The notes under the pieces: model-generated | What the model was told of the DNA's origin: nothing | The model's database searches: none | Seen by the model: only the letters and a program-made list of their open reading frames with translations | Shown here: positions 8,548 to 41,229 of the stretch, in pieces | Numbering within the stretch: the first letter of the stretch is position 1 | How the letters are laid out: every line of letters starts with the position of its first letter | DNA from: Patescibacteria group bacterium | Lineage (GTDB): Bacteria > Patescibacteriota > Minisyncoccia > JAHIHE01 > JAGLIN01 | DNA length: 41,229 bases | Assembly: GCA_019428855.1 (NCBI GenBank) | Contig: JAHYJV010000008.1 | Coordinates: 1 to 41,229, forward strand | Direction of reading: 5' to 3' | Made by a program: the position numbers and the translations under genes

Positions 8548-8567
8548 TAATTTAAAAAATAATTATT

Positions 8568-9766: not shown

Positions 9767-9799
9767 TATATTAAAAAATAATTTAATATTTAGACTATA

Positions 9800-9976
9800 A
9801 TGTCAAAAGCAAGATATAAAAATTTATTAGATAAATCTATTCAGTCGGCAATTTCTGCGATAGAAATATACAATAAACCAGATTTTAAATATCGTGAGGA
9901 ATCTTTTTCGATTTTGATAATAAATGCTTGGGAATTATTATTTAAAGCAAAAATTTTACAAGACAAAATGAGCTAA
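9800..9976 (+). pseudogene. N-terminal stub of a DUF3644-type gene
   Basis: A 58-codon ORF missed by the track starts MSKARYKNLLDKSIQSAISA and includes IEIYNKPDFKYREESFSIL and NAWELLFKAKIL. This is the characteristic start of DUF3644 proteins, which are normally several hundred residues long and are often found in restriction and defence loci. Homology stops abruptly after KAKIL, where the DNA becomes the 3' end of an hsdM gene. The gene was therefore cut by recombination and only its first sixth or so is left. DUF3644 recognition is from memory of the family signature. Confidence 0.65.
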
Positions 9977-10011
9977 GGACTGCTATTGATGAGATTGTGT
10001 CGGAGATTTAA
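9961..10011 (+). pseudogene. Remnant of a second hsdM 3' end
   Basis: One reading frame gives RQNELRTAIDEIVSEI followed by TAA. The intact hsdM ends RQNELRTAIDEIVTDIEG. The protein match is 13 identical residues in a row, while the DNA differs at many third positions (for example GAGCTAAGGACTGCT versus GAACTCCGCACAGCG). It is therefore not a recent duplicate of the resident hsdM but the tail of a different, diverged hsdM. It marks a recombination junction with the DUF3644 stub. Confidence 0.8.
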
Positions 10012-10024
10012 AAAAATTAAGATT

Positions 10025-11083: not shown

Positions 11084-11125
11084 GAGACAAAAATTAACCC
11101 AGAAAATATTCCGTTTTAAAAAATT

Positions 11126-12280: not shown

Positions 12281-13104
12281 AAAACACTATTCAACTTTTT
12301 GAAAAAAAACAAGTCCGAGCTGTTTGGAATGACGACGAAGAAGAATGGTATTTCTCAGTTGTTGATATTATTGAGGTGCTGACTGATAGCAAAAATCCGA
12401 CCGATTATCTAAAAAAACTCAGAAAACGAGATTCATTACTTGGTGAGTACATAGGGACAAATTGTCCCCATGTAGATATGACTACCTTACATGGTAAAAC
12501 AAGAAAAACATTAGCGGCAAATACCAAACATGTTTTTCGCATTATCCAATCCATACCTTCCAAAAAAGCAGAACCTTTCAAGCTATGGTTGGCTGAGGTT
12601 GCAAAAAAACGGCTTGATCAAATACAAGATCCCGAGCTTTCCATTGAGCAGGCAATGTGGGATTTTAAAAATTTGGGATACTCGGAAAACTGGATCAATC
12701 AAAGATTAAAGAGTATAGAGATTCGCAAAGAGCTTACTGATGAATGGAAAAAATACGGACTGAAAGAAGGTCTGGAATTTGCAACTCTCACTGACATTAT
12801 ATACAAAACATGGGCAGGAAAAACAGCAAAAGAATACAAAAAGTTTAAAAACCTAAAAAAAGAAAATCTTCGAGATAATATGACGAATAAAGAGCTTATC
12901 TTGAACATGCTTGCCGAATTATCCACCAAAGAAATATCGGAAGTGTCTAATCCAAAGTCATTTCAGGATCATGAACATGTCGCAAAACGCGGAGGTACTA
13001 TCTCTAAAGAAGCTCGCATAAAACTGGAAGCTGAAACAGGCAAAAAGGTAATTAGCCCTTTAAACATAAAAAAAATACTCCCTTCAAAAAAGAATAAAAA
13101 ATAG
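12277..13104 (+). CDS. BRO-N / DinD-like protein
   Basis: The N-terminal part of this 275-aa protein (VRAVWNDDEEEWYFSVVDIIEVLT...NPTDYLKKLRKRD) is a BRO-N domain, a DNA-binding-like module of phage antirepressors. The C-terminal part (AKRGGTISKEARIKLEAETGKKVISPLN) matches the end of DinD-like proteins. DinD of E. coli is DNA-damage-inducible and affects RecA filaments, but this gene's role is unknown. It overlaps hsdS by 4 bp and ends 2 bp before hsdR, so it is firmly embedded in the restriction operon and may regulate it or add a defence function. Confidence 0.82.
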   Translation: MKNTIQLFEKKQVRAVWNDDEEEWYFSVVDIIEVLTDSKNPTDYLKKLRKRDSLLGEYIGTNCPHVDMTTLHGKTRKTLAANTKHVFRIIQSIPSKKAEPFKLWLAEVAKKRLDQIQDPELSIEQAMWDFKNLGYSENWINQRLKSIEIRKELTDEWKKYGLKEGLEFATLTDIIYKTWAGKTAKEYKKFKNLKKENLRDNMTNKELILNMLAELSTKEISEVSNPKSFQDHEHVAKRGGTISKEARIKLEAETGKKVISPLNIKKILPSKKNKK

Positions 13105-13106
13105 CT

Positions 13107-16100: not shown

Positions 16101-16160
16101 TTAAATAAACTTACAATTTTTTTTGAGCGATTCTTTGATATTTCTAGTGGGAAATTATAA
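13107..16160 (+). CDS. hsdR: Type I restriction endonuclease subunit R
   Basis: This 1017-aa protein is full length for HsdR. The N-terminal PD-(D/E)xK nuclease is seen as [22 protein letters not shown] (about residues 150-172). The SF2 translocase motifs follow: Walker A [12 protein letters not shown] (about 325-336), the DEAD-box-like [21 protein letters not shown] (motif III), and [20 protein letters not shown] with [11 protein letters not shown] (motifs V and VI). A helical domain that binds the methylase closes the protein. No key residue is missing, so with hsdM and hsdS it should form an active ATP-dependent restriction enzyme. The start is 2 bp after the BRO/DinD-like gene. Confidence 0.96.
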   Translation: [1017 protein letters not shown]

Positions 16161-25493: not shown

Positions 25494-25574
25494 CAAATAT
25501 GCTATTATTCTAGTTCAAAGTTAAGCTAGGTTTGATTGTGTTATTTAATATTATTTATAAATTCCTTTCAAAAT

Positions 25575-26717
25575 ATGATTGATAAAAATTATATATTGGC
25601 AGTTTCTTCAATGGTTGGTACTTCAGTAGGTGTGGGAATATTTTCTCTACCATATGTTGCTTCAAAATCAGGATTTTTTTTCTTTATAATTCTTATTATT
25701 TTGTTGGGCATTGTTACAACAACTTTAAGCTTAATGTATGGAGAAATAACCTTGAGAACAAAAAATAAAGGAAGACTTGTTGGTTTTTGTGAAAAGTATC
25801 TTGGTAAAAATGGAAAGAAAATTGCAACTGTTGTTACTCTTTTTACTCTGTATTCTAGCATGCTTGCTTACATTATTATTGGAGGTATTTTTGGCAGTGC
25901 TGTATTTTCAAGTTCTTTCGGAGGGAATGAATTTTCATACAGCATAATAATGTTTTTGTTCATTTCAGTTGGTATCTATATTAGTTTGAAGCTTATCAGT
26001 GTGATTGAATTTCTGATGGTTATTTTTCTTTTTGTGGCTATTTTGGGAATTATTATTAAAGGGGTGCCAATGGTTGAAGTTGGTAATCTTATATCTAATG
26101 ATTCTTCTCAATTCTTTTTCCCATTTGGTGCAATTCTTTTTTCATTAGGAGCCCTATCTGCAATTCCAGAACTTGAACATATCATAAAAAAAGGACAAAA
26201 AAGAATCAAGGATGTTATAGTTATTGGAAATATTATTCCAATTGTTGTTTATATCCTGTTTGTATTTGTGATTCTTGGAATCACAGGAGCAGGAACATCA
26301 GAAGAGGCATTTCATGGCCTTTCTCTGAGTGTTGGAGATGGTATTGTGACACTAGGTTTGATTTTTGGGATATTTGCAATCTCGACTTCGTTTTTAATGT
26401 TGGGCGTGAACTTAAAGGAAATATTTTGGTATGACTACCATCTTAGCGAAAAAACAGCTTGGGCACTCACCTGTTTTGTTCCTTTCGCTGTTTTTGTATT
26501 AGGAATGCGTGATTTTATCACCGTTGTTAATATTGCTGGAAGCATTGCGGGAGGATTTGCTGGAATCTTGATTATAATTATATTTTATAGAGCAAAAAAG
26601 ATGGGGGATATAAAGCCAGCTTATAGTATAAAAGTCCCAATTATAATTTCAATTATTATGGTTATTATATATTCTGCAGGAATTATTTATCAGCTAATTG
26701 AAAGCATTAAGATTTAA
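25575..26717 (+). CDS. Aromatic/branched amino-acid permease-like transporter
   Basis: This 380-aa membrane protein has about eleven spans. The first, SSMVGTSVGVGIFSLPYVAS, carries the glycine-rich unwound helix typical of APC-superfamily transporters, and the sequence resembles the tryptophan/tyrosine permease (HAAAP) group. FSLGALSAIPELEHIIKKGQ is also in line with that group. Substrate cannot be assigned. The track starts at a TTG (25536), but the ATG at 25575 (MIDKNYILAVSS) puts the first span at the N terminus as expected and is preferred. Amino-acid uptake would suit an organism with few biosynthetic genes. No terminator was recognised after it. Confidence 0.8.
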   Translation: MIDKNYILAVSSMVGTSVGVGIFSLPYVASKSGFFFFIILIILLGIVTTTLSLMYGEITLRTKNKGRLVGFCEKYLGKNGKKIATVVTLFTLYSSMLAYIIIGGIFGSAVFSSSFGGNEFSYSIIMFLFISVGIYISLKLISVIEFLMVIFLFVAILGIIIKGVPMVEVGNLISNDSSQFFFPFGAILFSLGALSAIPELEHIIKKGQKRIKDVIVIGNIIPIVVYILFVFVILGITGAGTSEEAFHGLSLSVGDGIVTLGLIFGIFAISTSFLMLGVNLKEIFWYDYHLSEKTAWALTCFVPFAVFVLGMRDFITVVNIAGSIAGGFAGILIIIIFYRAKKMGDIKPAYSIKVPIIISIIMVIIYSAGIIYQLIESIKI

Positions 26718-27223: not shown

Positions 27224-28282
27224 ATGGATAATCCCTTAATAATCATTGAAGTAATCCGAGTCTTTGCAATTTTAGCAATTACTTTTTCGGTGGCAATGAT
27301 TCTCACCCCAGTACTGACACTTTTTCTTTATAAGTATAAAATTGGCAAGCAGATTCGTGCAGACGGCGATACGCCGATTTTCACCGCACTGCATATGAAA
27401 AAGGCTGGAACTCCGACAATGGGCGGGCTTTTGATTTGGATTATAGTTCCTATTCTGGCAATGTTTTTTTGGTTTTTGTCAGTAATTTTTGAAGGATCTT
27501 TATTCGGTTATATAAATTTTCTTGATCGTTCTCAGACTTATTTACCTTTGGGAATTTTAGTTCTAGCAGGTATAGTAGGAGCAGTGGATGATCTAATGGG
27601 AGTGTTTCGTATTGGTCCTAAAGGAGGTGGTTTAGGCATTAAAGAAAGAATTCTACTATATACCTTTGTGGCAGTTGTTGGTGCCTGCTGGTTCTATTTC
27701 AAGCTTGGTTGGGATATGATTCATGTTCCAGGAGTTGGTGATTTTGTAATTGGTCTTTGGTATATTCCGCTTTTCATATTTATTATCGTGGCAACTTCAT
27801 TTTCACTTAATGAAACTGACGGACTTGATGGCTTAGCTGGGGGGACAGTATTGCCAGCTTTTGGAGTTTTTGGAGTAATCGCTTTTGCCCAAGGAAATAC
27901 TGAACTGGCGATGTTCTGTGCGGCAATCATCGGAGCTTTACTTGCTTTTTTGTGGTTCAATGTGCATCCGGCAAGGTTTTATATGGGGGATACTGGTTCA
28001 ATGGCTCTTGGTGTTACTGTCGGAGTTGTGGCCATGCTGACAAATTCATTTCTAATTCTTCCCATTGTTTGTTTTATCCTGGTGATTGAGTCTTTGTCGG
28101 TTATAATACAGTTGACATCAAAAAAATTTAGAGGAAAAAAAGTTTTCCGGAGTGCTCCAATTCATCACCACTTTGAAGCAATTGGTTGGCCAGAATGTAA
28201 AATAACAATGAGGTTTTGGATTATTGCCTGGGTGATGGCGTCAATTGGACTTGTAATCGGTTTGCTTGGAATGGGAAATTAG
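27224..28282 (+). CDS. mraY: Phospho-N-acetylmuramoyl-pentapeptide transferase
   Basis: This 352-aa, ten-span protein has all MraY landmarks: KKAGTPTMGGLL near the N terminus, GAVDDLMGV (catalytic Asp pair), NETDGLDGLAGG, FMGDTGSMALG and the cytosolic PIHHHFEAIGWPE loop. MraY moves phospho-MurNAc-pentapeptide from UDP to undecaprenyl phosphate on the inner membrane face, forming lipid I, the substrate of MurG in this cluster. Here it is separated from murD by the D-aminoacylase-like, small membrane and NlpC/P60 genes, an unusual order. No murE or murF is present in the window. Confidence 0.96.
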   Translation: MDNPLIIIEVIRVFAILAITFSVAMILTPVLTLFLYKYKIGKQIRADGDTPIFTALHMKKAGTPTMGGLLIWIIVPILAMFFWFLSVIFEGSLFGYINFLDRSQTYLPLGILVLAGIVGAVDDLMGVFRIGPKGGGLGIKERILLYTFVAVVGACWFYFKLGWDMIHVPGVGDFVIGLWYIPLFIFIIVATSFSLNETDGLDGLAGGTVLPAFGVFGVIAFAQGNTELAMFCAAIIGALLAFLWFNVHPARFYMGDTGSMALGVTVGVVAMLTNSFLILPIVCFILVIESLSVIIQLTSKKFRGKKVFRSAPIHHHFEAIGWPECKITMRFWIIAWVMASIGLVIGLLGMGN

Positions 28283-28475: not shown

Positions 28476-30053
28476 ATGTTAGATATATTAATTAAAAATG
28501 GGACTGTCATTGATGGAACTGGGTCAAAAGGCTTTATTGCAGATATTGGTATTGAAAAGGGGTTGATTACTATCCTTGAAAAAAGTGATAAAACTAAGTC
28601 TGCTGAGACAATAGATGCCTTAGGGAAAATTGTGTGTCCAGGGTTTATCGATATTCAGGATCATTCAGATAATTTTTGGACTATTTTTACATTACCTCGA
28701 ATGGACAGTAAAGTTATGGATGGCGTGACAACAATAATCGGAGGGAACTGTGGAACATCACTGGCACCAATATTAGGTGAGGGTTCTGTTGAGTCTATGA
28801 GAAAATGGGTTGATATTGGTAATGTTTATATAAACTGGGATAGGATGAGTAGTTTTTTTTCAGAATTATATAAGAAAGAGTTAGGATTAAATTTTGGTAC
28901 TCTGGTTGGGCACGAGACACTGAGAAGAGGGTTAATGGGAGATCAGGTGAGAAAGATTTCAGAGGAAGAAATTCAAATGATAGGCAGAATGCTTTCTGAG
29001 AGTTTGGATGCTGGTGCTTTCGGTTTTTCTACTGGACTCGTTTTTTCTCACGCTCGTATGGCAACTATTGAAGAAATTAGAAACATTGTTCAAATACTAA
29101 AAGAAAATAATTCATTTTATGCTAGTCATATACGAGGTGAATCTGAAGAGCTCTTGCCTAGTATAAATGAAACAATACAAATAGGAAGAAGAACAGGAGT
29201 CCCGATTCAAATATCTCATTTGAAAGCAGTTGGGGAAAAATATTGGTCTGACATGCAAAAGGCCATTGAGATGATAAATATTGCGAATGAAGAAGGAGTT
29301 GATATTAGTTTTGATATATATCCGTATGATACTACAGGATCAGTACTTTATATTTTGCTTCCAGATTGGGTTTCTCAAGGTGGTAGAAAAGAAATGATAC
29401 TGAGATTGAAAAATGTAGATTTGCGGGATAAAATTATAAAAGAGATGAGAGAGATGAATTATAACTACAATAATATTACTGTTTCTATTTGTCCAAGGCT
29501 AAAAGAAGCAGTCGGTAGAAAAATTACTGACCTTGCCTCAAGTCAAGAAATCAGTCCTGAAGAAGCTATAATCGAGCTTTTAATAAGTGCCAACGGTCAT
29601 GTTGTTGTATTTAATCGAGAAATATTAAGTGAAGATAATATCAGGCTAGCCTTGCAATCTCCTTACTCAATTGTTTCATCTGCAGATGCTGCATATAATG
29701 TCGAGTATGCAAGGACGGGAGAGTTTGTTCATCCGAGATGTTTCGGAACTTTTTCGAGAGTCCTGGGAAGATATGTGAGAGAACAAAAAGTTTTAAGTCT
29801 GGAAAGTGCAATTCAAAAAATGACCTTTGCACCAGCAAAAAAAATTGGATTAAAAGACAGAGGTATTTTGAAAAAAGGTTTTCTCGCAGATGTTGTTGTC
29901 TTTGATGAAAATGAAATCATCGATAAAGCAAATTTTGAAAATCCTTACCAGTATTCTCAAGGAATTGAACATGTTATAATCAATGGTAAAGTAGTTGTAA
30001 AAAACGGGAAACACACTGGAGAACTAGCAGGAAAGGTTCTCAGACATAAATAA
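28476..30053 (+). CDS. D-aminoacylase-like amidohydrolase
   Basis: This 525-aa protein matches N-acyl-D-amino-acid deacylases: DILIKNGTVIDGTGSKGF at the N terminus, CPGFIDIQDHSDN, GVTTIIGGNCGTSLAPI (metal-binding Cys), YASHIRGESEELL and IQISHLKAVGEKYW (metal-binding His residues), and FAPAKKIGLKDRG at the end. The family hydrolyses the amide of N-acyl-D-amino acids. In classical members the first motif is D-x-H-x-H; here the first His is Gln-Asp (DIQDHSD), so the secondary metal site is altered while the tight site is kept. Its position among wall genes suggests turnover of D-amino-acid-containing material. It starts 193 bp after mraY; nothing was recognised in that gap. Confidence 0.88.
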   Translation: MLDILIKNGTVIDGTGSKGFIADIGIEKGLITILEKSDKTKSAETIDALGKIVCPGFIDIQDHSDNFWTIFTLPRMDSKVMDGVTTIIGGNCGTSLAPILGEGSVESMRKWVDIGNVYINWDRMSSFFSELYKKELGLNFGTLVGHETLRRGLMGDQVRKISEEEIQMIGRMLSESLDAGAFGFSTGLVFSHARMATIEEIRNIVQILKENNSFYASHIRGESEELLPSINETIQIGRRTGVPIQISHLKAVGEKYWSDMQKAIEMINIANEEGVDISFDIYPYDTTGSVLYILLPDWVSQGGRKEMILRLKNVDLRDKIIKEMREMNYNYNNITVSICPRLKEAVGRKITDLASSQEISPEEAIIELLISANGHVVVFNREILSEDNIRLALQSPYSIVSSADAAYNVEYARTGEFVHPRCFGTFSRVLGRYVREQKVLSLESAIQKMTFAPAKKIGLKDRGILKKGFLADVVVFDENEIIDKANFENPYQYSQGIEHVIINGKVVVKNGKHTGELAGKVLRHK

Positions 30054-30508: not shown

Positions 30509-31579
30509 ATGAAAGATTTGAATAATGCTTTAGAAAAATACAAAAAACAAAATCAGCAAGACTACGGCATTGCTGTTTTTGATGTTGATTTGAAAGTAAC
30601 AGCGGAAGGAATTTTTATTTTTGGAGAAGTTTTAACTGAGAATCAAAAAAATAAAATTATTGAATTGTTAAAAGAAAAAAAAATAAAATTTGTTAATGAG
30701 AAAATAAAAGTCCTTAGTGATGCAAGTAAACGATATGAGATTGGTTGGGTTGTTGTGAAAACTAAGATTGCAGATTTAAAGTCGCGATTTGTTTCAAGTA
30801 AAATTATAAATGAAATAATTTTGAAAAGGATTAGATGTTCGCAGGTTTTTCAGGGAGAAATTTTGCGAGTTTTATATAAAAATGAAGACCAGTTTTTGGT
30901 TCAGCAAAATGATTTAACCATAGGCTGGGTCAATCGAAGTGAGGTTATTGTTAAGAAAAATAATTTGTTAAAAGAATGGAAAAAAGGGGTTTATGCGATT
31001 AAGGGTGAGTTAATAAAAATTAAGAATGAAAAAATTGAAAAAAAGTTCCACGGTCGTGATGGGATTGTAGAATCATCGGAGACTTGTAATTTTGAACTTG
31101 TTTCAGAATCTGCTGTATATTTTAGGGAAGATAACAATATAAAAAACAAGCAACAGACATCACAACCACAATTTGAAATTATAAAAGAGGTAGAAAAATA
31201 TCTTGGCACAAAATATCTCCTTGGAGGAAAAACAGAAAAAGGAATTGATTGCTCGGGCTTGGTTCAAAGGGCGTATAAAAATTCTTTAGGAATTATTTTA
31301 CCAAAACACTCTTGGGATCAAAAGGAGATAGGTGTGAAAGTTTTACTGGAAGATGTGAAAACGGGGGATTTAGTGTTTTTGATAAAAAAATCAAATCAAC
31401 ATAAACATGTTGGAATTGTTGAAGTAATTTCCAGTTGTCATAGTGAGCTTGTCGAACCACTGCAATCTAATATAAATTTAATTCACGCTTCGCTAGATGA
31501 AAAGAAGGTTGTCGGGCAAAAGCTGCAAAATGTTTTAGAAAGATACGAGTTTGTGGAGGCGAGAAGGATTGTGGAATAG
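30509..31579 (+). CDS. NlpC/P60-family cell-wall peptidase with repeat-derived insertions
   Basis: The C-terminal NlpC/P60 domain of this 356-aa protein starts near residue 225 (EVEKYLGTKYLLGGKTEKGI), with catalytic Cys in DCSGLVQRAY, His in HKHVGIVEV and the third polar residue probably the His of IHASLDE. The preceding region (about 110-190) resembles two SH3-like domains (LRVLYKNEDQFLVQQNDLTIGWV). No signal peptide is evident at the given start, which is odd for a wall hydrolase. The family cuts D-Glu-DAP type bonds in peptidoglycan peptides. Two in-frame stretches, FELVSESA (about 197-204) and CHSELVEPL (about 311-319), look like translated copies of short palindromic repeats, the second inside the catalytic domain after the active-site His. 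Confidence 0.85.
   Translation: MKDLNNALEKYKKQNQQDYGIAVFDVDLKVTAEGIFIFGEVLTENQKNKIIELLKEKKIKFVNEKIKVLSDASKRYEIGWVVVKTKIADLKSRFVSSKIINEIILKRIRCSQVFQGEILRVLYKNEDQFLVQQNDLTIGWVNRSEVIVKKNNLLKEWKKGVYAIKGELIKIKNEKIEKKFHGRDGIVESSETCNFELVSESAVYFREDNNIKNKQQTSQPQFEIIKEVEKYLGTKYLLGGKTEKGIDCSGLVQRAYKNSLGIILPKHSWDQKEIGVKVLLEDVKTGDLVFLIKKSNQHKHVGIVEVISSCHSELVEPLQSNINLIHASLDEKKVVGQKLQNVLERYEFVEARRIVE
31084..31112 (+). repeat. Repeat-like segment inside the NlpC/P60 gene, copy 1
   Basis: TTTTGAACTTGTTTCAGAATC closely resembles the dispersed element ATTCTGAACTTGTTTCAGAATC seen in many bacterial genomes. It lies in frame in the linker before the peptidase domain and encodes NFELVSES. Confidence 0.5.
31437..31462 (+). 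repeat. Repeat-like segment inside the NlpC/P60 gene, copy 2
   Basis: GTCATAGTGAGCTTGTCGAA followed by CCACTG has the same layout as copy 1 (CAT-x-GTGAGCTTGTCGAAC type) and the partial symmetry AGTG...CACT. It is in frame and encodes CHSELVEPL within the peptidase domain. Confidence 0.5.
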
Positions 31580-31636: not shown

Positions 31637-33118
31637 ATGTTAATAGTAGAACAACTTAAACAATATAAAAACAAAAATATTCACATCGTTGGAATTGGGG
31701 GAGCGGAAGGGAGTGCGATTGCGGAGTTTTTAGTGAGCAATTGTATTTCCTCAATTACAGGACACGATTTTTCTGCCAAGGCAGATTTTAAAAAAGCTTT
31801 TTTCAATACGCATTTGAGTTTGAAATCGAAGGAGCGAGATGAAGCCTTGGATCACCTATTAAATTTGCCAATTAAAATTAATTTCAAGGATCATTATTTG
31901 GAAAATATTGAGGAGGCGGATGTAGTTTTTGTTTCACAAGTCTGGTTTAAATATTTTCAGAATATGCCGATTTTAGAAAATCTCAAAGATAACAGAATTC
32001 CTTTTAAGACTATTACAAATTTATATTTTGAACTTTCCCCCTGTCAGATTATTTCTGTAACGGGAACAAATGGAAAAACAACCACTGCAAGATTAATATA
32101 TATTATTTTTGAAAAATGGGAGAAGGAAACTAGCCAGTTTAAATTATTTTTTGCTGGAAATGATCGGGAAAATTTACAAGTTTTGGATAAATTACAGGAT
32201 ATGAAAAAAGAAGATGTTTTGATTCTAGAGACAAGTAGTACTCAACTTCTCTTAAATTCTGACATAAGTCCTCATCTTGGAGTGATTACAAATATTTCTC
32301 CAAATCATTTGGATGATCATGGTAGTTTTGAAAATTATCTTGAAGCCAAGAAAAATTTAATTCGATATCAGAAAAAAGGAGATTTTGCGGTTTTGAATTA
32401 TGACAATAAATCGACTAGAAAAATTGCCGCAGAATTTCGGGGTAATGCCTTTTTATTTAGCGCACAGAAGAAGCTAGAGGAGGGTTGTTTCATTAGAGAC
32501 AGCGAAGTAGTGATTAGAGTAGATGGCAGAGAAACGGTTTTGATGCGAGTAGACGATATAAAGATTCCAGGAAAACATAACTTAGAGAATGTTTTGGCAG
32601 CTGTGAGCTGTGCTTATCTTTATGGAATTAGTTCGAATATTATCAAAGAGGGAATTTCAAAATATACAGGCATTAAACACAGACTTAAATTTATTTATAA
32701 TATAAATGGAATCAAATATTATGATGATACGCAGGCGACGACTCCAGAAGCGACGATTGCTGGGATAAACTCCTTTGGTAATAATATAATCTTATTGGCT
32801 GGTGGGGATGATAAAGGGATGAATTATGAAGAGTTGGGAAAGAATATAAATAGCAAAGTCAAATTTTTAATATTGTTTCCGGGAGATGCGTCAGATAAAA
32901 TTGAAAAGTTTGTGGACAAGAAAAAAAATGATTTTGTGAAAGTGAATACTTTTCAAGAGGCGATTGAGGAATTAAAAAAATATTACAAAAAAACCGACCT
33001 AAAAAAAGACGGCACGGTTTTGATTTCTCCCGGTGCAGCACATTTCTATTCCAGATTTGTGGAAAGCTCTGGCAAAGATTTGAAGCAGTGGGTTAGGTTA
33101 TTATCAAGTATTAAGTAG
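31637..33118 (+). CDS. murD: UDP-N-acetylmuramoyl-alanine--D-glutamate ligase
   Basis: This 493-aa Mur ligase has the N-terminal Rossmann-like domain (NIHIVGIGGAEGSAIAEFL), the ATP loop VTGTNGKTTTARL, ETSSTQLL, TNISPNHLDDHGSFENY, PGKHNLENVLAA and IKYYDDTQATTPEATIAGI, the last typical of MurD. It adds D-glutamate to UDP-MurNAc-L-Ala in the cytosol. It is about 40 residues longer than typical MurD, mostly from an expanded N-terminal domain. It begins 57 bp after the NlpC/P60 gene. A 10-bp inverted repeat overlaps its stop codon. Confidence 0.92.
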   Translation: MLIVEQLKQYKNKNIHIVGIGGAEGSAIAEFLVSNCISSITGHDFSAKADFKKAFFNTHLSLKSKERDEALDHLLNLPIKINFKDHYLENIEEADVVFVSQVWFKYFQNMPILENLKDNRIPFKTITNLYFELSPCQIISVTGTNGKTTTARLIYIIFEKWEKETSQFKLFFAGNDRENLQVLDKLQDMKKEDVLILETSSTQLLLNSDISPHLGVITNISPNHLDDHGSFENYLEAKKNLIRYQKKGDFAVLNYDNKSTRKIAAEFRGNAFLFSAQKKLEEGCFIRDSEVVIRVDGRETVLMRVDDIKIPGKHNLENVLAAVSCAYLYGISSNIIKEGISKYTGIKHRLKFIYNINGIKYYDDTQATTPEATIAGINSFGNNIILLAGGDDKGMNYEELGKNINSKVKFLILFPGDASDKIEKFVDKKKNDFVKVNTFQEAIEELKKYYKKTDLKKDGTVLISPGAAHFYSRFVESSGKDLKQWVRLLSSIK

Positions 33119-33232: not shown

Positions 33233-33385
33233 TCACTTTTCCTCCTCAATCAACTCCAATTCAATTGGATCTGTAGAAATTACTTCATTTTCTGCGCCAC
33301 AAGCAGGGCAAATTAGAACTTCCCCAATCTCAGGTATTTCTTCTTCGATTGGAATTTCACAACCACATTCTTGGCAATTTGTCAT
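33233..33385 (-). CDS. LysW-like small zinc-ribbon protein
   Basis: This 50-aa ORF, missed by the track, reads MTNCQECGCEIPIEEEIPEI, then GEVLICPACGAENEVISTDP and an acidic end. Two CxxC pairs (CQEC and CPAC) and the ExGE-x-x-x-CPxCGAE layout match LysW, the amino-group carrier protein of lysine/arginine biosynthesis in Thermus and archaea. Canonical LysW ends in EDWGE with a C-terminal Glu to which the substrate is attached; this protein ends IEEEK, so carrier activity is doubtful unless the terminus is processed. It lies antisense between murD and a PLP enzyme/ATP-grasp pair. No LysX-type context in the same orientation is present. Confidence 0.68.
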   Translation of the reverse strand: MTNCQECGCEIPIEEEIPEIGEVLICPACGAENEVISTDPIELELIEEEK

Positions 33386-33437
33386 ATATTTGATTTAATG
33401 ATTATATGCTAATTATAGTAAGATTATTTTAAAAGTC

Positions 33438-33468
33438 AAAAAAATAAGATGCTATGATTTTGCATCTT
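33438..33468 (-). terminator. Rho-independent-type terminator, - strand
   Basis: On the - strand AAGATGC and GCATCTT pair across a 9-nt loop and are followed by ATTTTTTT. It would end transcripts from the small - strand ORFs at 33452-33751, upstream of the LysW-like gene. Confidence 0.65.
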
Positions 33469-33598
33469 TGGACTTTGAAATTATTTGATAGATTATGTTT
33501 CCAATTATAATTAATATCATAGCAACTGTAAAATATAGTGCAAAGTGTTTAGCAACATTGACATAGGTTGTGTAGTAGATGCCATAACAAAAGAGAAA
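33452..33598 (-). pseudogene. Start-less open frame encoding one membrane span
   Basis: The frame reads FLFCYGIYYTTYVNVAKHFA, then LYFTVAMILIIIGNIIYQII and a short charged end before TAG. There is no ATG at the left; an internal ATG begins at AMILIII. It looks like the tail of a small membrane protein that lost its start through a frameshift, but it could be noise. The stop lies within the terminator hairpin. Confidence 0.25.
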
Positions 33599-33628
33599 TC
33601 AGAAAACAAATATCTCAATTAGTATTTT

Positions 33629-33751
33629 TTATAAGTCCATTTTTTTAAATTTATCAACTACTTTTACTATAGTCATAAAACATTCTATGAATGCAACTAT
33701 TCCTGAAATAAATAACATAATTTTTAATGTTTCTTGGCTGATTGGTTCCAT
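33629..33751 (-). CDS. 40-aa single-span membrane protein with strong ribosome site
   Basis: The ORF reads MEPISQETLKIMLFISGIVA, then FIECFMTIVKVVDKFKKMDL. It has one predicted membrane helix and a basic C terminus. A consensus GGAGG sits 7 nt upstream of the ATG, unusual in this window, where most large genes show no Shine-Dalgarno. This supports real translation. The function is unknown. Confidence 0.55.
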   Translation of the reverse strand: MEPISQETLKIMLFISGIVAFIECFMTIVKVVDKFKKMDL

Positions 33752-33798
33752 ACTAATTCCTCCATATATATATTAAAATCCTAATACATTAAAAATAA

Positions 33799-34863
33799 AT
33801 GTTAAATTTTCAAGATAAAATTAATAAAGAAGAAAAAGGTATCTGGAGATATGCTGATTTTTATGATGAGTTTATAAAATCAGAAAATCGTTTATATCTC
33901 AAAGATGGTGATTCGGAATTATTAGAAAATACAGATTTGAATAAAATCAGTCAGATAGATTATTTGTTTTTTTTAAGAGAAGATAAAAATGAAACAGAAT
34001 CATTAAAAGGTAGGAGTTTGGCTTTTCAAGTTGCGCTTGCCAAACAAAATGGAAAAAAAGAGCTTGTAATTTCAACTTCGGGAAATGCGGGGATTGCGGC
34101 GGCTGCATATTGTGAAAAAGCGAAAATTAAATTATATATTTTTATTTCCCCGGAAACCGAAAGGGCAAAAATTGCACAAATGCAAAAGCATAATCCTATA
34201 ATAATCAAATCCAAAAAAGCAATTCGGTTAGCAAATTATTTATCAGCAAGATATAAAATTGAAAATTTGAGACCGTCTGCGAATGAATCTTCTATTGAGG
34301 GTTTTAAATCAATTGCTTTTGAAATATTTGAGAAATTAGGAGAAATCGATGCACTTTTTACCTATGTGACCAGTGGAAGTTCGTTTGTGGGAATTGGCAG
34401 AGCTTATAAATTTTTACATGAAATTGGCGAAATCAAGACAATGCCAAAATTGTTTGCTGTTCAAAGTGGCGAGATTTCATCAATTTCCGAAGAATTTGAA
34501 AAAATTAATCAGCAAGAAAATTCTAGGGCAGGGAAATTGGGAGTGAAAAATACTCGAAGAAAAAATGAAATTTTACAGTTTATCAAACAAAGCGGAGGAA
34601 GAGGAATATATATAAAAGAAAATGAGTTTGATAAATCGAAAAAAATACTAGAGAAAAATAATATATATACATCGGCAGAAGGTTGTGCAAATTTTGCAGC
34701 TAGTTTACGAGAAGGAAAAAAAAATAAGTTAAATAAAATAGTTTGCATACTTTCGGGAAGGGAAAGAGAGAAAGATAAGCTGATTAAAGAAGATAAAATA
34801 AAAAGAGCGGAAAATTTTAAGGATGTAGATAATATAGTCGTCGGAAAATTTAATTGTTGCTGA
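33799..34863 (+). CDS. Fold-type II PLP enzyme, threonine-synthase/cysteine-synthase superfamily
   Basis: This 354-aa protein has the fold-type II core. The PLP-lysine segment is ETESLKGRSLAFQVALA (consensus P-T-G-S-F-K-D-R), followed by the substrate loop VISTSGNAGIAAAAY and SSIEGFKSIAFEIFEKLG. The phosphate-binding loop appears as TYVTSGSSFVGIGRA, less glycine-rich than usual. The end is cysteine-rich (KFNCC). The superfamily performs beta- or gamma-replacement and elimination on amino acids such as O-phosphoserine, O-acetylserine or O-phosphohomoserine. The substrate is unknown. It stands 42 bp before an ATP-grasp gene and within the mur cluster, so it may make an amino acid for wall-related ligation. 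Confidence 0.82.
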   Translation: MLNFQDKINKEEKGIWRYADFYDEFIKSENRLYLKDGDSELLENTDLNKISQIDYLFFLREDKNETESLKGRSLAFQVALAKQNGKKELVISTSGNAGIAAAAYCEKAKIKLYIFISPETERAKIAQMQKHNPIIIKSKKAIRLANYLSARYKIENLRPSANESSIEGFKSIAFEIFEKLGEIDALFTYVTSGSSFVGIGRAYKFLHEIGEIKTMPKLFAVQSGEISSISEEFEKINQQENSRAGKLGVKNTRRKNEILQFIKQSGGRGIYIKENEFDKSKKILEKNNIYTSAEGCANFAASLREGKKNKLNKIVCILSGREREKDKLIKEDKIKRAENFKDVDNIVVGKFNCC

Positions 34864-34905
34864 TAATCTTTTTGTCACTTTAAACCTTCTAAAAATATAA
34901 AATTT

Positions 34906-36267
34906 ATGATAAGGGAAATTAATAAAATTAATGATTTGATAAATCAAGAAAAAACTGGTCCAATCTTTTTTGTCACTCCAAATCCAATATACGCAGTGGG
35001 GATAGAGAAAATTATTAGAGATTATTATGTAATTTGTGCACAGGAATATGACATTATTAAATTTTTAAGAAAAGAAAACATCCCAGTTTTATCTTTGAAT
35101 GATAATAGTATAAAAAATGCTGGAAAAATTTTGACTAACAAGAAAGCCCTTGAATATATAAAGAGAAAATCAAAAAAAAGGAAGGCAAATATAATTACTT
35201 TCAAGCCAAGTCCGATGATTCAAAAAGCATGTCTTGATAACGATTTTAATTATTTAGGCAATGATTGGAAGCTGAGTGCGAAATTGGAAAATAAGATTGA
35301 ATTTATTGAGGTAACAAAAAAATTAAAAATTCCTAATGCTGAATGCAAAATAATAAAATTAGACAATAACAAAGATTCTTTAAATTTCTCTGGGAAGCAT
35401 AAATTTGTTTTACAGCTACCGCGAGGACATGCTGGAAATTCAACTTTTTTAATTAAGAATGAGAATGATTTCAAAAACCTTTCTGAAAAATATAAAAATA
35501 GAACCGTTAAAGTTTCAAAGTATTTTAAAGGAGAGACATATACAATTAATGCTTGTGTCGTCGGTAATAAGATATTAATTAGTAAGCCAATCTTCCAGAT
35601 AACAGGATTTTCTTTATATAATAAAAATAGTTTTGGAGGAACATGCGGCAATGATTATGCTTATCCTAAAAAACTTTCCAGAGTACAAAGAAAAAAAATT
35701 TTTGATTACACCAATAAAATCGGGAATTATATCAATAAACTTGGATATAGGGGAATTTTTGGTTTAGATTTCGTGGTAAGTGGTGGAATAGTCAATCTAA
35801 TAGAAATAAATCCGCGTATTATCGGATCGATGTCGCTTTTCACAAAACTTCAAATTCAAAGCAAGCAACCCCCTTTTTTACTTTTAAGTATTCTAGAATT
35901 TATAAACCCCGTCAAGATTCGGAGCACTAGTTTTGAAGAGTGGGACAAGGAGGATTGTTTTGTTGCTTCCCAACTAATGCTAAGAAATACTAAGAATAAA
36001 TCAATTGAAATTATAAAAAGTATACAATCTGGAATTTATGAAATGAAAGGAAATAGATTATTTTATAAAGAAAAAGTGTATAGCACAGAGCGAAAATTAG
36101 GGGTTGAGGAATTTTTAGTGCAATGCTCTTCAATAGGTCGTTTAGTAAGTTCTGATTTAGAGTACGCAAATATACAATTTGGACATGGAATTATGGAGAA
36201 TGATAATATCAAGATGGAAGATGAAGTAATAATAAACAAAGTGTTAGATAGTATAAAAATAAAGTAG
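34906..36267 (+). CDS. ATP-grasp ligase-like protein in the mur cluster
   Basis: This 453-aa protein shows ATP-grasp features: FVLQLPRGHAGNSTFLI (glycine-rich loop and nucleotide-binding Lys region), KVSKYFKGETYTINACVV, and the metal-binding end FGLDFVVSGGIVNLIEINPRI (conserved E and N). The N-terminal about 110 residues form a Rossmann-like pre-ATP-grasp domain. The C-terminal about 120 residues are an added domain resembling those of carboxylate-amine ligases. Family members join a carboxylate to an amino group via an acyl-phosphate. This is not a recognisable Ddl, which is absent from the window. It follows the PLP gene by 42 bp and precedes ftsW by 10 bp, so it is transcribed with wall genes. 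Confidence 0.8.
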   Translation: MIREINKINDLINQEKTGPIFFVTPNPIYAVGIEKIIRDYYVICAQEYDIIKFLRKENIPVLSLNDNSIKNAGKILTNKKALEYIKRKSKKRKANIITFKPSPMIQKACLDNDFNYLGNDWKLSAKLENKIEFIEVTKKLKIPNAECKIIKLDNNKDSLNFSGKHKFVLQLPRGHAGNSTFLIKNENDFKNLSEKYKNRTVKVSKYFKGETYTINACVVGNKILISKPIFQITGFSLYNKNSFGGTCGNDYAYPKKLSRVQRKKIFDYTNKIGNYINKLGYRGIFGLDFVVSGGIVNLIEINPRIIGSMSLFTKLQIQSKQPPFLLLSILEFINPVKIRSTSFEEWDKEDCFVASQLMLRNTKNKSIEIIKSIQSGIYEMKGNRLFYKEKVYSTERKLGVEEFLVQCSSIGRLVSSDLEYANIQFGHGIMENDNIKMEDEVIINKVLDSIKIK

Positions 36268-36277
36268 TAATTTTTTT

Positions 36278-37378
36278 ATGAAATTAAAAAACATCGATAA
36301 ATCATTATTTATCACAGTCATCGCCTTGTCTGTTTTTGGTTTGATTATAATATCAAGTGCTAGTGTAGTGATGAGTTATAATAAATTTGGATATAATAAT
36401 CATTATTATTTATTGCACCAGTTTTTATATGGTTTTCTTCCAGGAATCATATTACTATATCTAATCCAAAAAATTGATTATAAAATTCTAAAAAACTATG
36501 CCCCTTTGTTTTTAGTAGCAACTTTAATCTTGTCATTGATAGTCTTTATTCCAGGAGTAGGTTACGGTTTAAAAGGTGCCAACAGATGGATAGATATTGC
36601 TGGAATAAGTCTACAGCCGTCGGAATTTATAAAATTAACCTTTGTTATATATTTAGCTGCATGGCTTGAGAATAATAAAAAAGATAAAGAGAAATTTTCG
36701 AAACTATTAATTCCTTTTATTATAATAACTTCAGTAATCGCACTGCCTCTGATATTACAGCCAGATGTTGGGACCTTAAGTATTATTATACTTACGGCGG
36801 TGATAATGTATTTTATGTCTGGTGCAAGAATTAGTCATATACTGATTATTGTTTCGGGTGGAATTATGGGATTGTTATTTTTGATAAAAGTTGCCCCATA
36901 CCGCATGAATAGATTTATAGTTTTTTTACATCCAGAACTAGATCCTCTAGGGATTGGGTATCAAATTAATCAGGCTTTATTAGCCATTGGTTCTGGAGGT
37001 TTTTTGGGGCTTGGATTTGGGAGAAGCAGGCAGAAATTTAATTATTTGCCAGAACCTATTGGTGACTCAATTTTTGCAGTAACCGGAGAAGAATTAGGCT
37101 TTGTCGGATTGTTTATTCTTTTAACACTTTTTCTTATATTTGCACTAAAAGGTTACAAGATAGCAAGCAAGGCACCAGATGATTTTGGAAAACTGGTTGC
37201 CATTGGAATTACTTCTTGGATTATTTTTCAGGCTTTTGTCAATATAGCCGCTATTATATCATTAATCCCTCTAACAGGTATTCCTTTACCTTTTATAAGC
37301 TATGGTGGATCGGCCTTAATTACTTCTTTGGTCGGATGCGGAATTTTACTTAGCATATCTAGACAAACAACAAAATAA
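36278..37378 (+). CDS. ftsW: SEDS-family peptidoglycan polymerase FtsW
   Basis: This 366-aa, ten-span protein has the SEDS signature segments: GLKGANRWIDIAGISLQPSE, LILQPDVGTLSIIIL, PYRMNRFIVFLHPELDPLG, YQINQALLAIGSGGFLGLGF, LPEPIGDSIFAVTGEELGF and GIPLPFISYGGSALI. SEDS proteins polymerise lipid II together with a class B penicillin-binding protein, at the septum for FtsW. The neighbourhood (murD, murG, murC, murB) points to FtsW rather than RodA, though sequence alone does not decide. It starts 10 bp after the ATP-grasp gene. Confidence 0.93.
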   Translation: MKLKNIDKSLFITVIALSVFGLIIISSASVVMSYNKFGYNNHYYLLHQFLYGFLPGIILLYLIQKIDYKILKNYAPLFLVATLILSLIVFIPGVGYGLKGANRWIDIAGISLQPSEFIKLTFVIYLAAWLENNKKDKEKFSKLLIPFIIITSVIALPLILQPDVGTLSIIILTAVIMYFMSGARISHILIIVSGGIMGLLFLIKVAPYRMNRFIVFLHPELDPLGIGYQINQALLAIGSGGFLGLGFGRSRQKFNYLPEPIGDSIFAVTGEELGFVGLFILLTLFLIFALKGYKIASKAPDDFGKLVAIGITSWIIFQAFVNIAAIISLIPLTGIPLPFISYGGSALITSLVGCGILLSISRQTTK

Positions 37379-37441: not shown

Positions 37442-38554
37442 ATGAGAATATTATTTGTAGGAAGGCCATTAAAAGGTCACTTGTATCCATTGATTGCGAT
37501 ATATGAGGAGTTCAAAAAGACAATGAATCTAGAAGATTTTAATTCCATGGAATTCAAGCTAGTAACCGCAAAAAGCGAGTTTGTGCCTGATGTTCTACAG
37601 GGAATTGATATCCCATATAGTTTTGTAGTTTCTGCGAAAGAAAGAGATTCTTTCTCTCCACTGATTGTCCTAGACATTTTTAAGTCTTTTATCGGATTTA
37701 TCCAATCTATTCTAGTGCTTTTTATCTACATGCCAGATGTTATTTTTTCAAAAGGTAGCGTTGTCTCTTTTCCTGTTGTGTTGGCTGGTTGGATATTGAG
37801 GATTCCGATTATTATTCATGAGTCAGATGCTATAGCTATTCCAATTGATAAATTTATGTTCAGACTTGCAAAAAAAGTAGCCGTTTCGTTTCCTGTCAGT
37901 AAAGATGTTTATGTTTCTAAGAAAGTTTTTTTCTCTGGAAATCCGACAAGGAGTTTTATTATTCCAGGAGATAAAATGAAAGCGAAACAAAGCTTTATTT
38001 TGCATGACGAAAAACCTGTTTTGTTTATTATGGCAGGAACTGAGGGAGCTGAACTTATTAATAGATTGGTGGTTGAGATTTTACCAAATTTGTTAAAAAA
38101 GTATCAAATCATCCATCAATGTGGATCAGCAAACTATAATTATGTCCGAGCAGTTGTTCAGAAAATGAATGTTCCTGATTTGAATGATTATCATATATTT
38201 CCGTATTTCAGAGAAAGAGCTGCTGATGCATATAATGCTAGTGACTTAGTAATTAGTAGGGCTGGAGCAAATACGGTTTCTGAAATTATGACAATGAACA
38301 AGGCAAGCATTTTAATACCTCTTTCAATAGGAGGTAGTGATAAACAGCAAAAAAATGCTTATCATTATTCTCAATCTGGAGCAGCTGTTATTGTTAGTGA
38401 AAAAAACCTAAAACCTCACTTGCTTTTGAATGTTGTTGATGATTTATTTAAAAATCATTTAAAAATTATTGAGATGGAACGAGCATCAAGAAAATTATCA
38501 TATAACGATGCTGGACAAATAATTATTGAATCCATAAAGGAGCTAGGGGATTAA
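37442..38554 (+). CDS. murG: UDP-GlcNAc--undecaprenyl-pyrophosphoryl-MurNAc-pentapeptide transferase
   Basis: This 370-aa GT-B protein starts MRILFVGRPLKGHLYPLIAI; the usual MurG GGTGGHxxPA loop is replaced by GRPLKGHLYPL, keeping the key GH-x-x-P. Further landmarks are SKGSVVSFPVVLAGWIL, IIIHESDAI, FFSGNPTR, and DLVISRAGANTVSEIM for UDP-GlcNAc binding, followed by IPLSIGGSDKQQKNA. MurG adds GlcNAc to lipid I on the inner membrane face to form lipid II. It precedes murC by 14 bp. Confidence 0.9.
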   Translation: MRILFVGRPLKGHLYPLIAIYEEFKKTMNLEDFNSMEFKLVTAKSEFVPDVLQGIDIPYSFVVSAKERDSFSPLIVLDIFKSFIGFIQSILVLFIYMPDVIFSKGSVVSFPVVLAGWILRIPIIIHESDAIAIPIDKFMFRLAKKVAVSFPVSKDVYVSKKVFFSGNPTRSFIIPGDKMKAKQSFILHDEKPVLFIMAGTEGAELINRLVVEILPNLLKKYQIIHQCGSANYNYVRAVVQKMNVPDLNDYHIFPYFRERAADAYNASDLVISRAGANTVSEIMTMNKASILIPLSIGGSDKQQKNAYHYSQSGAAVIVSEKNLKPHLLLNVVDDLFKNHLKIIEMERASRKLSYNDAGQIIIESIKELGD

Positions 38555-38568: not shown

Positions 38569-39957
38569 ATGGAAATTGACTTCGAAAAAATTAATAAAAT
38601 TCATTTTATAGGAATTGGTGGTATTGGCTTAAGTGCGATTGCCAGACTTATGCAAATGAATGGAAAAAAAATAAGCGGTTCGGATTTGAATCGTTCTTTG
38701 ATTGTTGATAACCTTGAAAGAGATGGGCTGGAGGTTTTTATCGGACAGTCAGGCAAAAATATAGCTGATGACATTGAGCTGGTTATCCATACAATGGCAA
38801 TTTCTAAAGAAAATCCAGAATTGAAAAAAGCAAAAGAACTGCATATAAAAACAATTACATATCCAGAATCACTTGGGCTTATCTTTAATGGTAGGTATGG
38901 GATTGCGGTTTGTGGCACTCATGGAAAATCTTCTACAACGGCGATGGCAGGGTTAATGCTGGACGATGCAGAACTTGATCCTTCAATTATTGTCGGTAGT
39001 ATTTTGCCAAGATATAAAAGTAATTTGCGAATTGGAAAAAGTAAATATTTTTTGATTGAGGCTTGTGAGTATAAAAGAGCATTTTTGAATTATTATCCGA
39101 AAATAATTTTATTAAACAACATTGAGCTTGATCATACGGATTATTATAAAGATTTAAATGATTTTAAAGGGGCTTTTACGGAATTTGTTTCGCATTTGCC
39201 AGAAGATGGGATTTTGATATGTAACGGAGATGATGAAAATATAGTTTGTATCAAGCATCAAGCATTAAAAGTCATAAAGTTTGGTCTGAAAGAAAATAAT
39301 GAAGTGAGAGCTATAAATATAATATTCACAGATGGACGGACAAGATTTGAAGTTATTTATCAGAATGAAAATTTAGGAGAATTTGTATTAAAAGTTCCTG
39401 GACTTTTTAATATTTTTAATGCGTTGGGAGCGATTTCTTTAGGATTAAATTTGAAAATTCCAGTTGAGCAAATTAAAAAATCTCTGGAAAATTATGCAGG
39501 GATTTGGAGAAGATTCGAAATCAAGGGGGAGTATAAAAGTGCTTTGGTAATTTCTGACTATGCTCATCATCCGACAGCAGTTAAATCAACAATTGAAGCG
39601 ACAAAAAATTTTTATCCTGGGAAAAGAATATTTACGGTTTTTCAACCTCATCAACACAATCGCATAAAAGAATTATACCAAGATTTCTTGAAAAGTTTTG
39701 ACAAGGCTGATGTTTTGATTTTGGCGGAGATTTTTGATGTTACGGGAAGAGAAGAGGCAAAAGACCAAACTGTAGGTTCTTTAAATTTGGTCAATGATAT
39801 CAAAAAACAAGGCAAAGTGATATCAAAAAATATATGTTATGCAAAAAATTTACAAGAAGCACGGAAATTGATTGATGAGAAAATCAAGCCAGATGATATA
39901 TTGCTGATTATGGGTGCAGGTGATATCTATAAAATAGCCGATGAGTTGGTTGAATAA
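38569..39957 (+). CDS. murC: UDP-N-acetylmuramate--L-alanine ligase
   Basis: This 462-aa Mur ligase starts with the nucleotide-binding HFIGIGGIGLSAIARLM and GSDLNRS, then has the ATP loop VCGTHGKSSTTAMAGLM (Ser where Thr is usual), EACEYKRAFLNYYP with NIELDHTDYYKD, VPGLFNIFNALGA and the MurC-typical DYAHHPTAVKSTI. It adds L-alanine to UDP-MurNAc in the cytosol. It follows murG by 14 bp. The stop codon sits within the A-tract of a - strand terminator hairpin. Confidence 0.94.
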   Translation: MEIDFEKINKIHFIGIGGIGLSAIARLMQMNGKKISGSDLNRSLIVDNLERDGLEVFIGQSGKNIADDIELVIHTMAISKENPELKKAKELHIKTITYPESLGLIFNGRYGIAVCGTHGKSSTTAMAGLMLDDAELDPSIIVGSILPRYKSNLRIGKSKYFLIEACEYKRAFLNYYPKIILLNNIELDHTDYYKDLNDFKGAFTEFVSHLPEDGILICNGDDENIVCIKHQALKVIKFGLKENNEVRAINIIFTDGRTRFEVIYQNENLGEFVLKVPGLFNIFNALGAISLGLNLKIPVEQIKKSLENYAGIWRRFEIKGEYKSALVISDYAHHPTAVKSTIEATKNFYPGKRIFTVFQPHQHNRIKELYQDFLKSFDKADVLILAEIFDVTGREEAKDQTVGSLNLVNDIKKQGKVISKNICYAKNLQEARKLIDEKIKPDDILLIMGAGDIYKIADELVE

Positions 39958-40307: not shown

Positions 40308-41229
40308 ATGTCAATTGAAATTCAAAAAAATATCTCACTTTCAAAATATACCTCTTTTAGAATCGGCGGTCTGGCGAAGTTTTTTTGTGTCGTGGAAAAT
40401 ATTGATGAAATTCAAGAGGTTATGGAATATGCAAGAGAAAATAATTTAGCAGTTTTCGTTTTAGGAAGTGGAAGTAATATTCTTATTTCAGATAAGGGGT
40501 TTAATGGACTAGTTATAAAGATACAAGATATAAGATGCGAGATTCAAAATAGTGATAAAATATTTGTCGGTGCTGGGTTACCTTTGGCAAAATTAGTTAG
40601 TGAGTCAGTGAAGAATAATTTTACTGGGCTTGAATGGGCAGCAGGAATTCCTGGAACGGTCGGAGGAGCAATTTGTAATAATGCAGGGGCTCATGGAAAA
40701 TCTATGGAAGATGTTGTAGAAGAAGTGGAGGCTATTGAAATTATCCCTATGGGCAAGTCTTGGCGAGTTGAAAAACTTGCTAAGCAAGAATGTAATTTTA
40801 CATATCGCAACAGCATTTTCAAATCAGATAAAAAATATATCATTTTGAGTGCGGTTTTGAAATTGGTAAAAGAAGGTGAATCTGATAGCAGAAAATTAAT
40901 TGCAGAATATCTTCAAGCCAGAAGAGAAAAACAACCACTGGAATATCCAAGCGTGGGCAGTATTTTTAAAAATCAGAAAATTGAGGATGATGTTCTGAAA
41001 AAAATATTCATTAAATACCCAGAGTTGAAAGAAATAGTAAAAGACAATATAGTTCCCGTGGGATGGTTTGTAGAGGAGCTTGGTTTAAAAGGAAGGAAAA
41101 TAGGTGGAGCAATGATTTCCCAAAAGCATGGAAATTTTATCGTCAACACAGGCAATGCCCAAGCTGAAGATGTTGTGATTTTAATTAGCTTAATTAAGCA
41201 AAAAATTCGAGATCATTTTGGAGTTCAAC
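40308..41229 (+). CDS. murB: UDP-N-acetylenolpyruvoylglucosamine reductase, 3' end outside window
   Basis: The ORF runs off the right edge, so it is absent from the track. The 307 codons seen include YTSFRIGGLAKFF, LGSGSNILISD (FAD binding), GAGLPLAKLV, GLEWAAGIPGTVGGAICNNA, CNFTYRNSIFK, YPSVGSIFKN (catalytic Ser) and GLKGRKIGGAMISQKHGNFI near the end. MurB reduces UDP-GlcNAc-enolpyruvate to UDP-MurNAc with NADPH. Nearly the whole protein is present. The ATG at 40308 is preceded by an A/T-rich leader with no clear Shine-Dalgarno. Its first 15 bases are duplicated at 40082. Confidence 0.94.
   Translation, partial: MSIEIQKNISLSKYTSFRIGGLAKFFCVVENIDEIQEVMEYARENNLAVFVLGSGSNILISDKGFNGLVIKIQDIRCEIQNSDKIFVGAGLPLAKLVSESVKNNFTGLEWAAGIPGTVGGAICNNAGAHGKSMEDVVEEVEAIEIIPMGKSWRVEKLAKQECNFTYRNSIFKSDKKYIILSAVLKLVKEGESDSRKLIAEYLQARREKQPLEYPSVGSIFKNQKIEDDVLKKIFIKYPELKEIVKDNIVPVGWFVEELGLKGRKIGGAMISQKHGNFIVNTGNAQAEDVVILISLIKQKIRDHFGVQ

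Follow-up and report, generated by a model that had tools for sequence, protein, structure and literature searches.

The stretch of DNA analysed here (the window; 41,229 nucleotides) is contig C44 of G000, a Patescibacteria genome of 0.98 Mb in 52 contigs. Relatives from the same order bear the name Moraniibacteriota, and relatives from the same family a Paceibacterota/Parcubacteria label. Two forward-strand open reading frames between murD and ftsW encode PALP (354 residues) and an ATP-grasp protein (453 residues). Matches to PF00291 and PF02655 (36.6 bits for the latter, over cut-off) bear out the original prediction that a fold-type II PLP enzyme and an ATP-grasp protein occupy this interval. 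PALP and the ATP-grasp gene are separated by 42 bp, the tight linkage predicted for the ATP-grasp gene and ftsW was measured at 10 bp, and the extra C-terminal domain ascribed to the ATP-grasp protein comprises about 120 residues. Also as predicted, no murE, murF or ddl was found inside the window. The murD-PALP gap of 680 bp encloses, on the minus strand, an ORF that was overlooked in the first reading and encodes a LysW-like carrier of 50 residues (33236-33385, with the stop codon at 33233-33235). The features are collected in Table 1.

Table 1. Cell-wall genes and neighbouring features at the window's mraY-murB locus.
Feature	Position	Strand	Profile or structure match
MraY	27224..28282	+	PF00953 and MraY_sig1
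D-aminoacylase / N-acyl-D-glutamate deacylase homologue	28476..30053	+	PDB 1rjq 5e-73, 3gip 2.8e-69
NlpC/P60-like protein	30509..31579	+	PF00877 3.5e-18
MurD, convergent with carrier	31637..33118	+	TIGR01087 268.9 bits, over cut-off
LysW-like carrier, 50 aa, MTNCQECGCEIPIEEEIPEIGEVLICPACGAENEVISTDPIELELIEEEK, C-terminal Lys	33233..33385	-	PF21344 Zn_ribbon_LysW 2.1e-10
Intergenic region common to divergent carrier (-) and PALP (+)	33386..33798	.	
PALP, fold-type II PLP enzyme	33799..34863	+	PF00291 2.9e-39
ATP-grasp ligase with C-terminal domain (carboxylate-amine ligase)	34906..36267	+	PF02655 ATP-grasp_3 6e-9
FtsW	36278..37378	+	TIGR02614 369.9 bits, over cut-off
MurG	37442..38554	+	TIGR01133 192.7 bits (below cut-off); Pfam glycosyltransferase 28 domains
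MurC	38569..39957	+	TIGR01082 447 bits, over cut-off
MurB, incomplete at window edge	40308..41229	+	PF02873 and PF01565

Upstream of mraY, positions 25536-26717 encode an aromatic amino-acid permease-family protein, which is kept in the close relatives L050, L052 and L054. A hydrophobic 40-residue ORF lies between the carrier and PALP (33632-33751, minus strand); a short-motif search of the collected loci returned no relative of it, so it probably stands outside the module described below. Elsewhere in the window, positions 6949-16160 hold a defence-like island with HsdM, a RhuM-like protein, a Shedu SduA_C-domain protein, HsdS, a Bro-N protein and HsdR.

A LysW-like carrier with a C-terminal lysine

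The carrier scores 40.5 bits against PF21344, the LysW zinc-ribbon globular domain (cut-off 27), and 39.5 bits against the lysW equivalog TIGR01206, below its cut-off of 53.2. A carrier-family profile run against the PDB placed LysW on top (5k2m, 2.6e-10; 3wwl, 4.6e-10), with the next matches at 0.0018 or worse. Four Cys and the zinc ribbon of LysW are retained and the protein is acidic (pI 4.05), but its tail reads IEEEK, and the LysW-type EDWGE with terminal Glu is not present. Since it has neither the LysW tail nor a score above the equivalog cut-off, the protein is classed apart from LysW, though as amino-group-carrier-like. LysW is loaded on the side chain of its C-terminal Glu, within the motif EDWGE (PMC10433800), so the attachment chemistry must differ in a carrier lacking that Glu.

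Across 11 carrier-family homologues, dN is about 0.01-0.35 and dS mostly about 1 or above, an estimate that is unreliable when saturated; dS lies well above dN in most pairs compared. The EEEK tail is invariant among the homologues, and codon changes within it are synonymous only. The low dN and these purely synonymous changes indicate that the carrier is a real protein under strong constraint. The computed charge of the G000 proteins is -14.5 for the carrier, +26.7 for the ATP-grasp protein, +12.7 for PALP and +11 for the NlpC/P60-like protein, a complementarity that is not universal, as the ATP-grasp protein of L217 has a pI of 6.8 and the PALP of L221 one of 6.1. Recognition in known amino-group carrier systems is partly electrostatic (PMC9303977).

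It is very improbable that the small protein is instead a zinc-ribbon regulator or scaffold next to an ordinary uncharacterised enzyme pair. The carrier does lie on the opposite strand, always divergent from PALP, and divergent orientation is typical of many regulators. Yet no DNA-binding feature was seen in it, zinc ribbons associated with nucleic acids ranked well behind the LysW carriers when the PDB was searched with its family profile, and the invariant terminal Lys and acidic tail would suit a tethering tail.

The PALP and ATP-grasp enzymes

Foldseek comparison of the AF2 model of PALP (pLDDT 89) gave threonine synthase at a TM of 0.76-0.79 and serine racemase at about 0.75-0.79 (target-normalised). 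The PLP lysine K70 and G95 are kept in 41 of 41 aligned sequences, and S94 and N96 in 40 of 41; the lysine and asparagine loop that are hallmarks of fold-type II PLP enzymes are both present. By sequence and fold, the nearest relatives of PALP are threonine synthases (ThrC, fold type II), in which the Arg of NPYR-EGQKT binds the phosphate of phosphohomoserine. Assignment of PALP as a threonine synthase was nevertheless ruled out, because it scores far under every equivalog cut-off (138.9 versus 421; 64.5 versus 167.1 for TIGR00260) and the substrate-phosphate Arg is absent, with none at aligned positions 161-165 in any of the 41 sequences. Judged from sequence and model, PALP would be compatible with a serine/aspartate racemase, a PLP fold-type II enzyme of similar fold which likewise has the Lys and the SGN-loop Ser, the latter taking what we assume to be the place of the second base in these racemases. 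Identity between the two is low, however, and the same Ser also occurs in cysteine synthases.

The AF2 model of the ATP-grasp protein (pLDDT 91) was aligned by Foldseek over its full 453 residues with biotin carboxylase and the L-amino-acid ligase BL00235 (3vot). Both share with it the ATP-grasp fold with a C-terminal domain (TM 0.55-0.65), but identity is 10-13% and the acyl-CoA/pyruvate carboxylase context is absent here. Of 45 sequences compared, 44-45 retain the ATP/Mg residues K130, E300 and N302, and every one has a Gln at position 170; in its ATP/Mg residues and fold, the window protein agrees with an ATP-grasp ligase. Its profile matches are PRK06524, carbamoyl-phosphate-synthase-like and BesA models, with LysX not among them. 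The Ddl domain PF07478 (Dala_Dala_lig_C) did not match the window protein, and its G009 orthologue reached a sub-threshold 22 bits.

A second branch of the ATP-grasp family was seen in relatives of the same class (L016, L017, L018, L019 and L021), where it mostly adjoins another ATP-grasp-like protein. This branch (G077, G025, G060, G037:C6 and G030) lies in unrelated neighbourhoods outside mur clusters and was set aside.

Conservation of the module and its relation to Mur ligases and Ddl

Conservation was followed in a sample of 92 relatives and in a phylum sample of 380 genomes drawn evenly across Patescibacteria. The ATP-grasp search matched 21 of the 92 relatives, and the PALP search likewise 21. 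Throughout the window's family and order, the two genes stand together before ftsW-murG-murC wherever contigs allow; in G016 they are apart. In 16 of the 92, the carrier scored at least 69 bits (next score down, 36.5 bits), and 15 of these 16 genomes have close PALP and ATP-grasp, the exception being G011, whose assembly is 70% complete. The gene order mraY-NlpC-murD-carrier-PALP-ATPgrasp-ftsW-murG is retained in Wirthbacteria at 31-36% identity: both L217 and L221 run from mraY to the ATP-grasp gene, and L217 has ftsW-murG in addition. The pair is thus conserved inside the mur clusters of relatives, which argues for a peptidoglycan-linked pathway, one that is unnamed in the annotation libraries used.

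A match to the carrier profile was obtained in 39 of the 380 phylum genomes. These genomes, together with other loci, yielded 47 distinct Patescibacteria carriers, 44 of which end in Lys. PALP lies within 2 kb of 38 of the 44 Lys-terminal carriers, in divergent orientation in 38 of 38 cases, whereas none of the three carriers with other tails (VEES, DEV and EDWGQ) has PALP nearby. The VEES tail belongs to a LysW-like protein of L311 (G015:C36), a member of the order that has neither PALP nor ATP-grasp; it is perhaps a decayed or re-purposed carrier. When 26 clusters were examined in full, the carrier, PALP, ATP-grasp, NlpC/P60-like protein, murD or murC, mraY and murB recurred in varying order. 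Four of these, the carrier, PALP, the ATP-grasp protein and the NlpC/P60-like protein, constitute a module that turns up repeatedly across Patescibacteria next to murD/murC, mraY and murB.

The NlpC/P60-like protein of the window has no obvious signal peptide, as judged by eye, and is a predicted cytoplasmic amidase and candidate release enzyme. Its counterparts are fused to the ATP-grasp protein in L367 and to a MurC-like ligase in L362. ATE_C-like proteins (arginyl-tRNA-protein transferase C-terminal domain) occur between mraY and murC in L354, L355, L356, L370 and L372, and in L354 such an aminoacyltransferase is fused to a MurC-like ligase. The D-aminoacylase homologue, placed between mraY and the NlpC-like gene, might serve as an alternative release enzyme in some lineages; among the loci searched, it occurs only in four f1 genomes (those of the window, L050, L052 and L054) and in the distant G062 and G037 clusters.

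These neighbours bear on two further explanations. The module may build a non-standard amino acid, not necessarily D, on the carrier, destined for position 3 or for a cross-bridge; PALP could, for instance, form a diamino acid or a lanthionine-like residue by beta-replacement. Such chemistry is common among PALP enzymes, several modules contain, or have fused into them, an ATE_C-like aminoacyl-tRNA transferase, and the predicted MurE motif is TNEDPYSEDP, which is neither the DNPR of DAP-type nor the DNPA of Lys-type enzymes. We regard this explanation as unlikely, as the clusters have no conserved leaving-group donor enzyme and the D-aminoacylase homologue indicates D-amino acids in some lineages. 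Still less probable is salvage, in which the amidase, the D-aminoacylase and the ligase would recycle muropeptides imported from a host, with the carrier storing or shuttling the fragments. Patescibacteria are host-dependent, the amino-acid permease, amidase and D-aminoacylase are neighbours, and the MurC-like ligase of some clusters scores nearly as high for the murein peptide ligase Mpl (253 versus 238 bits). The universal core of ligase, PLP enzyme and carrier nevertheless follows a biosynthetic logic, and the permease and D-aminoacylase are lineage-specific.

The pair had also been proposed to replace missing steps of precursor synthesis. For murE and murF, this was ruled out by the presence of both on other contigs of G000: MurE on C33 (412 bits, over cut-off) and MurF on C14, adjoining a PBP (255 bits, under the cut-off of 288.6). 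A second MurF-like ligase of 524 residues (234 bits, hydrophobic N-terminus) is encoded on C49 (L267:4938-10285), with an alpha/beta hydrolase on one side and DegT and FemAB-like genes on the other, and a similar MurF-like/DegT/FemAB-like set is present in G062 (L273).

Replacement of Ddl fared differently. Family searches, on which the absences in G000 rest, found no Ddl in this genome or in its PALP/ATP-grasp relatives, and no Alr or MurI/Asp-Glu racemase in G000. ATP-grasp and Ddl almost never occur together among the 92 relatives (both in 1 of 21; Fisher 3e-7, not kinship-corrected), and the sole co-occurrence is an 826-aa tandem protein. Tandem ATP-grasp proteins of 825-829 aa with a Ddl-like C-terminal half were observed at L288:3012-5489 and in the Wirthbacteria G092, G093 and G094. 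The Ddl-like half scores 199.8 bits, below the cut-off of 243, and apart from the tandem proteins no Ddl-like gene was found in these genomes, which bear the module. Such a pattern, together with the fold likeness to the L-amino-acid dipeptide ligase 3vot, would favour an ATP-grasp protein acting as a non-orthologous D-Ala-D-Ala (or D-Ala-D-X) ligase in place of Ddl, and PALP acting as a free racemase in place of Alr, with the carrier incidental. In the phylum sample, however, a stand-alone Ddl accompanies the module in 12 of the 39 carrier genomes, and seven of them (G158, G225, G287, G349, G366, G382 and G426) combine it with carrier, PALP and ATP-grasp. The phylum-wide test gave a Fisher p of 0.04 with and 0.0035 without tandem proteins counted as Ddl, again not kinship-corrected. 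Lack of Ddl is also common by itself, as about two dozen of the 92 relatives have neither ATP-grasp nor Ddl, many of them with a MurF-like ligase. Since the full module and a Ddl occur side by side in other lineages, a simple replacement of Ddl is unlikely, and it is not the function that the modules have in common. The substitution of both Ddl and Alr, which leaves the linked carrier unexplained, is accordingly considered rather improbable.

Alr was detected in 0 of 16 carrier genomes and in 27 of the 76 others among the 92 relatives (Fisher 0.0024, not kinship-corrected). Many carrier-free relatives likewise have neither Alr nor MurI, which weakens a D-amino-acid reading. MurI/aspartate racemase was rejected as a missing partner, as PF01177 occurs among carrier genomes only in G008 and G010; of these two proteins, one was scanned and proved to be an aspartate/glutamate racemase rather than MurI, and the other resembles it. 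A D-amino-acid transaminase was rejected as well, since the class-IV aminotransferase at 18686 is of the branched-chain type (361.7 bits, over cut-off).

Proposed load-modify-release scheme and related systems

In known carrier systems, an ATP-grasp ligase loads an amino acid onto the C-terminus, the tethered substrate is modified, and a hydrolase releases it (PMC10433800, PMC9303977). By analogy, the ligase, PLP enzyme and amidase of the module would fit this logic. The chances are somewhat better than even that peptidoglycan synthesis here includes an amino-acid pathway running on a carrier protein, with PALP and the ATP-grasp protein as its core enzymes. The original prediction that the pair could make an unusual amino acid and attach it to a wall precursor, in an undescribed pathway, keeps its link to peptidoglycan and its conservation in mur clusters. 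The LysW-like carrier and the NlpC/P60-like amidase are needed to complete the pair, so the likely mechanism shifts to loading on the carrier, modification and release. A bolder reading, held at a probability of about one half, is that Patescibacteria have a dedicated amino-group-carrier pathway in which a LysW-like protein with a functional C-terminal Lys allows an amino acid for peptidoglycan, perhaps of the D form, to be made while protein-bound.

We infer the loading, chemistry and product of the module as follows. With ATP, the ATP-grasp protein would couple a small molecule, most probably an amino acid, to either the carboxylate or the epsilon-amine of the carrier's terminal Lys. PALP would act on this molecule through PLP chemistry, either ahead of loading or, with the alpha-amine free, once it is tethered to the carrier. 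An amino acid attached via its carboxyl to the Lys epsilon-amine would keep its alpha-amine free, making PLP chemistry on the carrier possible; if attached via its amine to the Lys carboxylate, PALP would have to act before loading. The amidase, and in some lineages possibly the D-aminoacylase homologue too, would free the product and regenerate the carrier, and the product would pass to a neighbouring Mur ligase. More tentatively, what is released would most likely be a stem-peptide D-amino acid, as suggested by the D-aminoacylase homologue in the cluster and the missing racemases; otherwise, it would be an unusual stem or bridge residue.

Amino-group carrier proteins are known to serve in the synthesis of lysine, of arginine and of a small number of natural products. 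The LysW/ArgW pathway (LysX, LysZ, LysY, LysJ and LysK; Thermus, Sulfolobus and Thermococcus) has a homologous acidic zinc-ribbon carrier, an ATP-grasp ligase partner and a presumably similar load-modify-release logic. Its carrier tail is EDWGE with a terminal Glu, in contrast to EEEK or similar with a terminal Lys in the module, whose ligase is larger and of a different ATP-grasp family than LysX/ArgX. In place of LysZ/Y/J/K, none of which was recognised among the identified cluster genes, the module has PALP and the NlpC/P60-like protein, within mur clusters.

Streptomyces carrier clusters (Vzb22) and the pearlins (TglA, PEARL ligase) resemble the module in the proposed tether-modify-release logic, but they make secondary metabolites with other modifying enzymes. 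In these systems, single amino acids are amide-linked to a small protein or peptide, modified and released; for pearlins, the amino acid comes from aminoacyl-tRNA, and the paper does not liken their carrier peptides to LysW (PMC9303977). By description, the D-aspartate ligase Aslfm and its racemase (Enterococcus faecium) are comparable as an ATP-grasp enzyme and an amino-acid-altering enzyme dedicated to peptidoglycan. Aslfm attaches its amino acid to the epsilon-amine of Lys. This system has no carrier protein, and its racemase is not a PALP.

In the open-licence literature, no paper was found that connects the walls of Patescibacteria with LysW, threonine-synthase-like enzymes or D-aminoacylase, and no description was found of a protein-tethered amino-acid route for cell walls. 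The module suggests that Patescibacteria synthesise or handle an amino acid for the wall in protein-bound form and, as it consists of four small proteins, it is amenable to direct reconstitution. If true, cell-wall synthesis would be fed by a protein-tethered route, which would help to explain how wall residues are supplied in host-dependent bacteria without recognised Ddl, Alr or MurI. A conserved carrier version in the mur clusters of several Patescibacteria lineages would tie carrier-bound chemistry to cell-wall synthesis.
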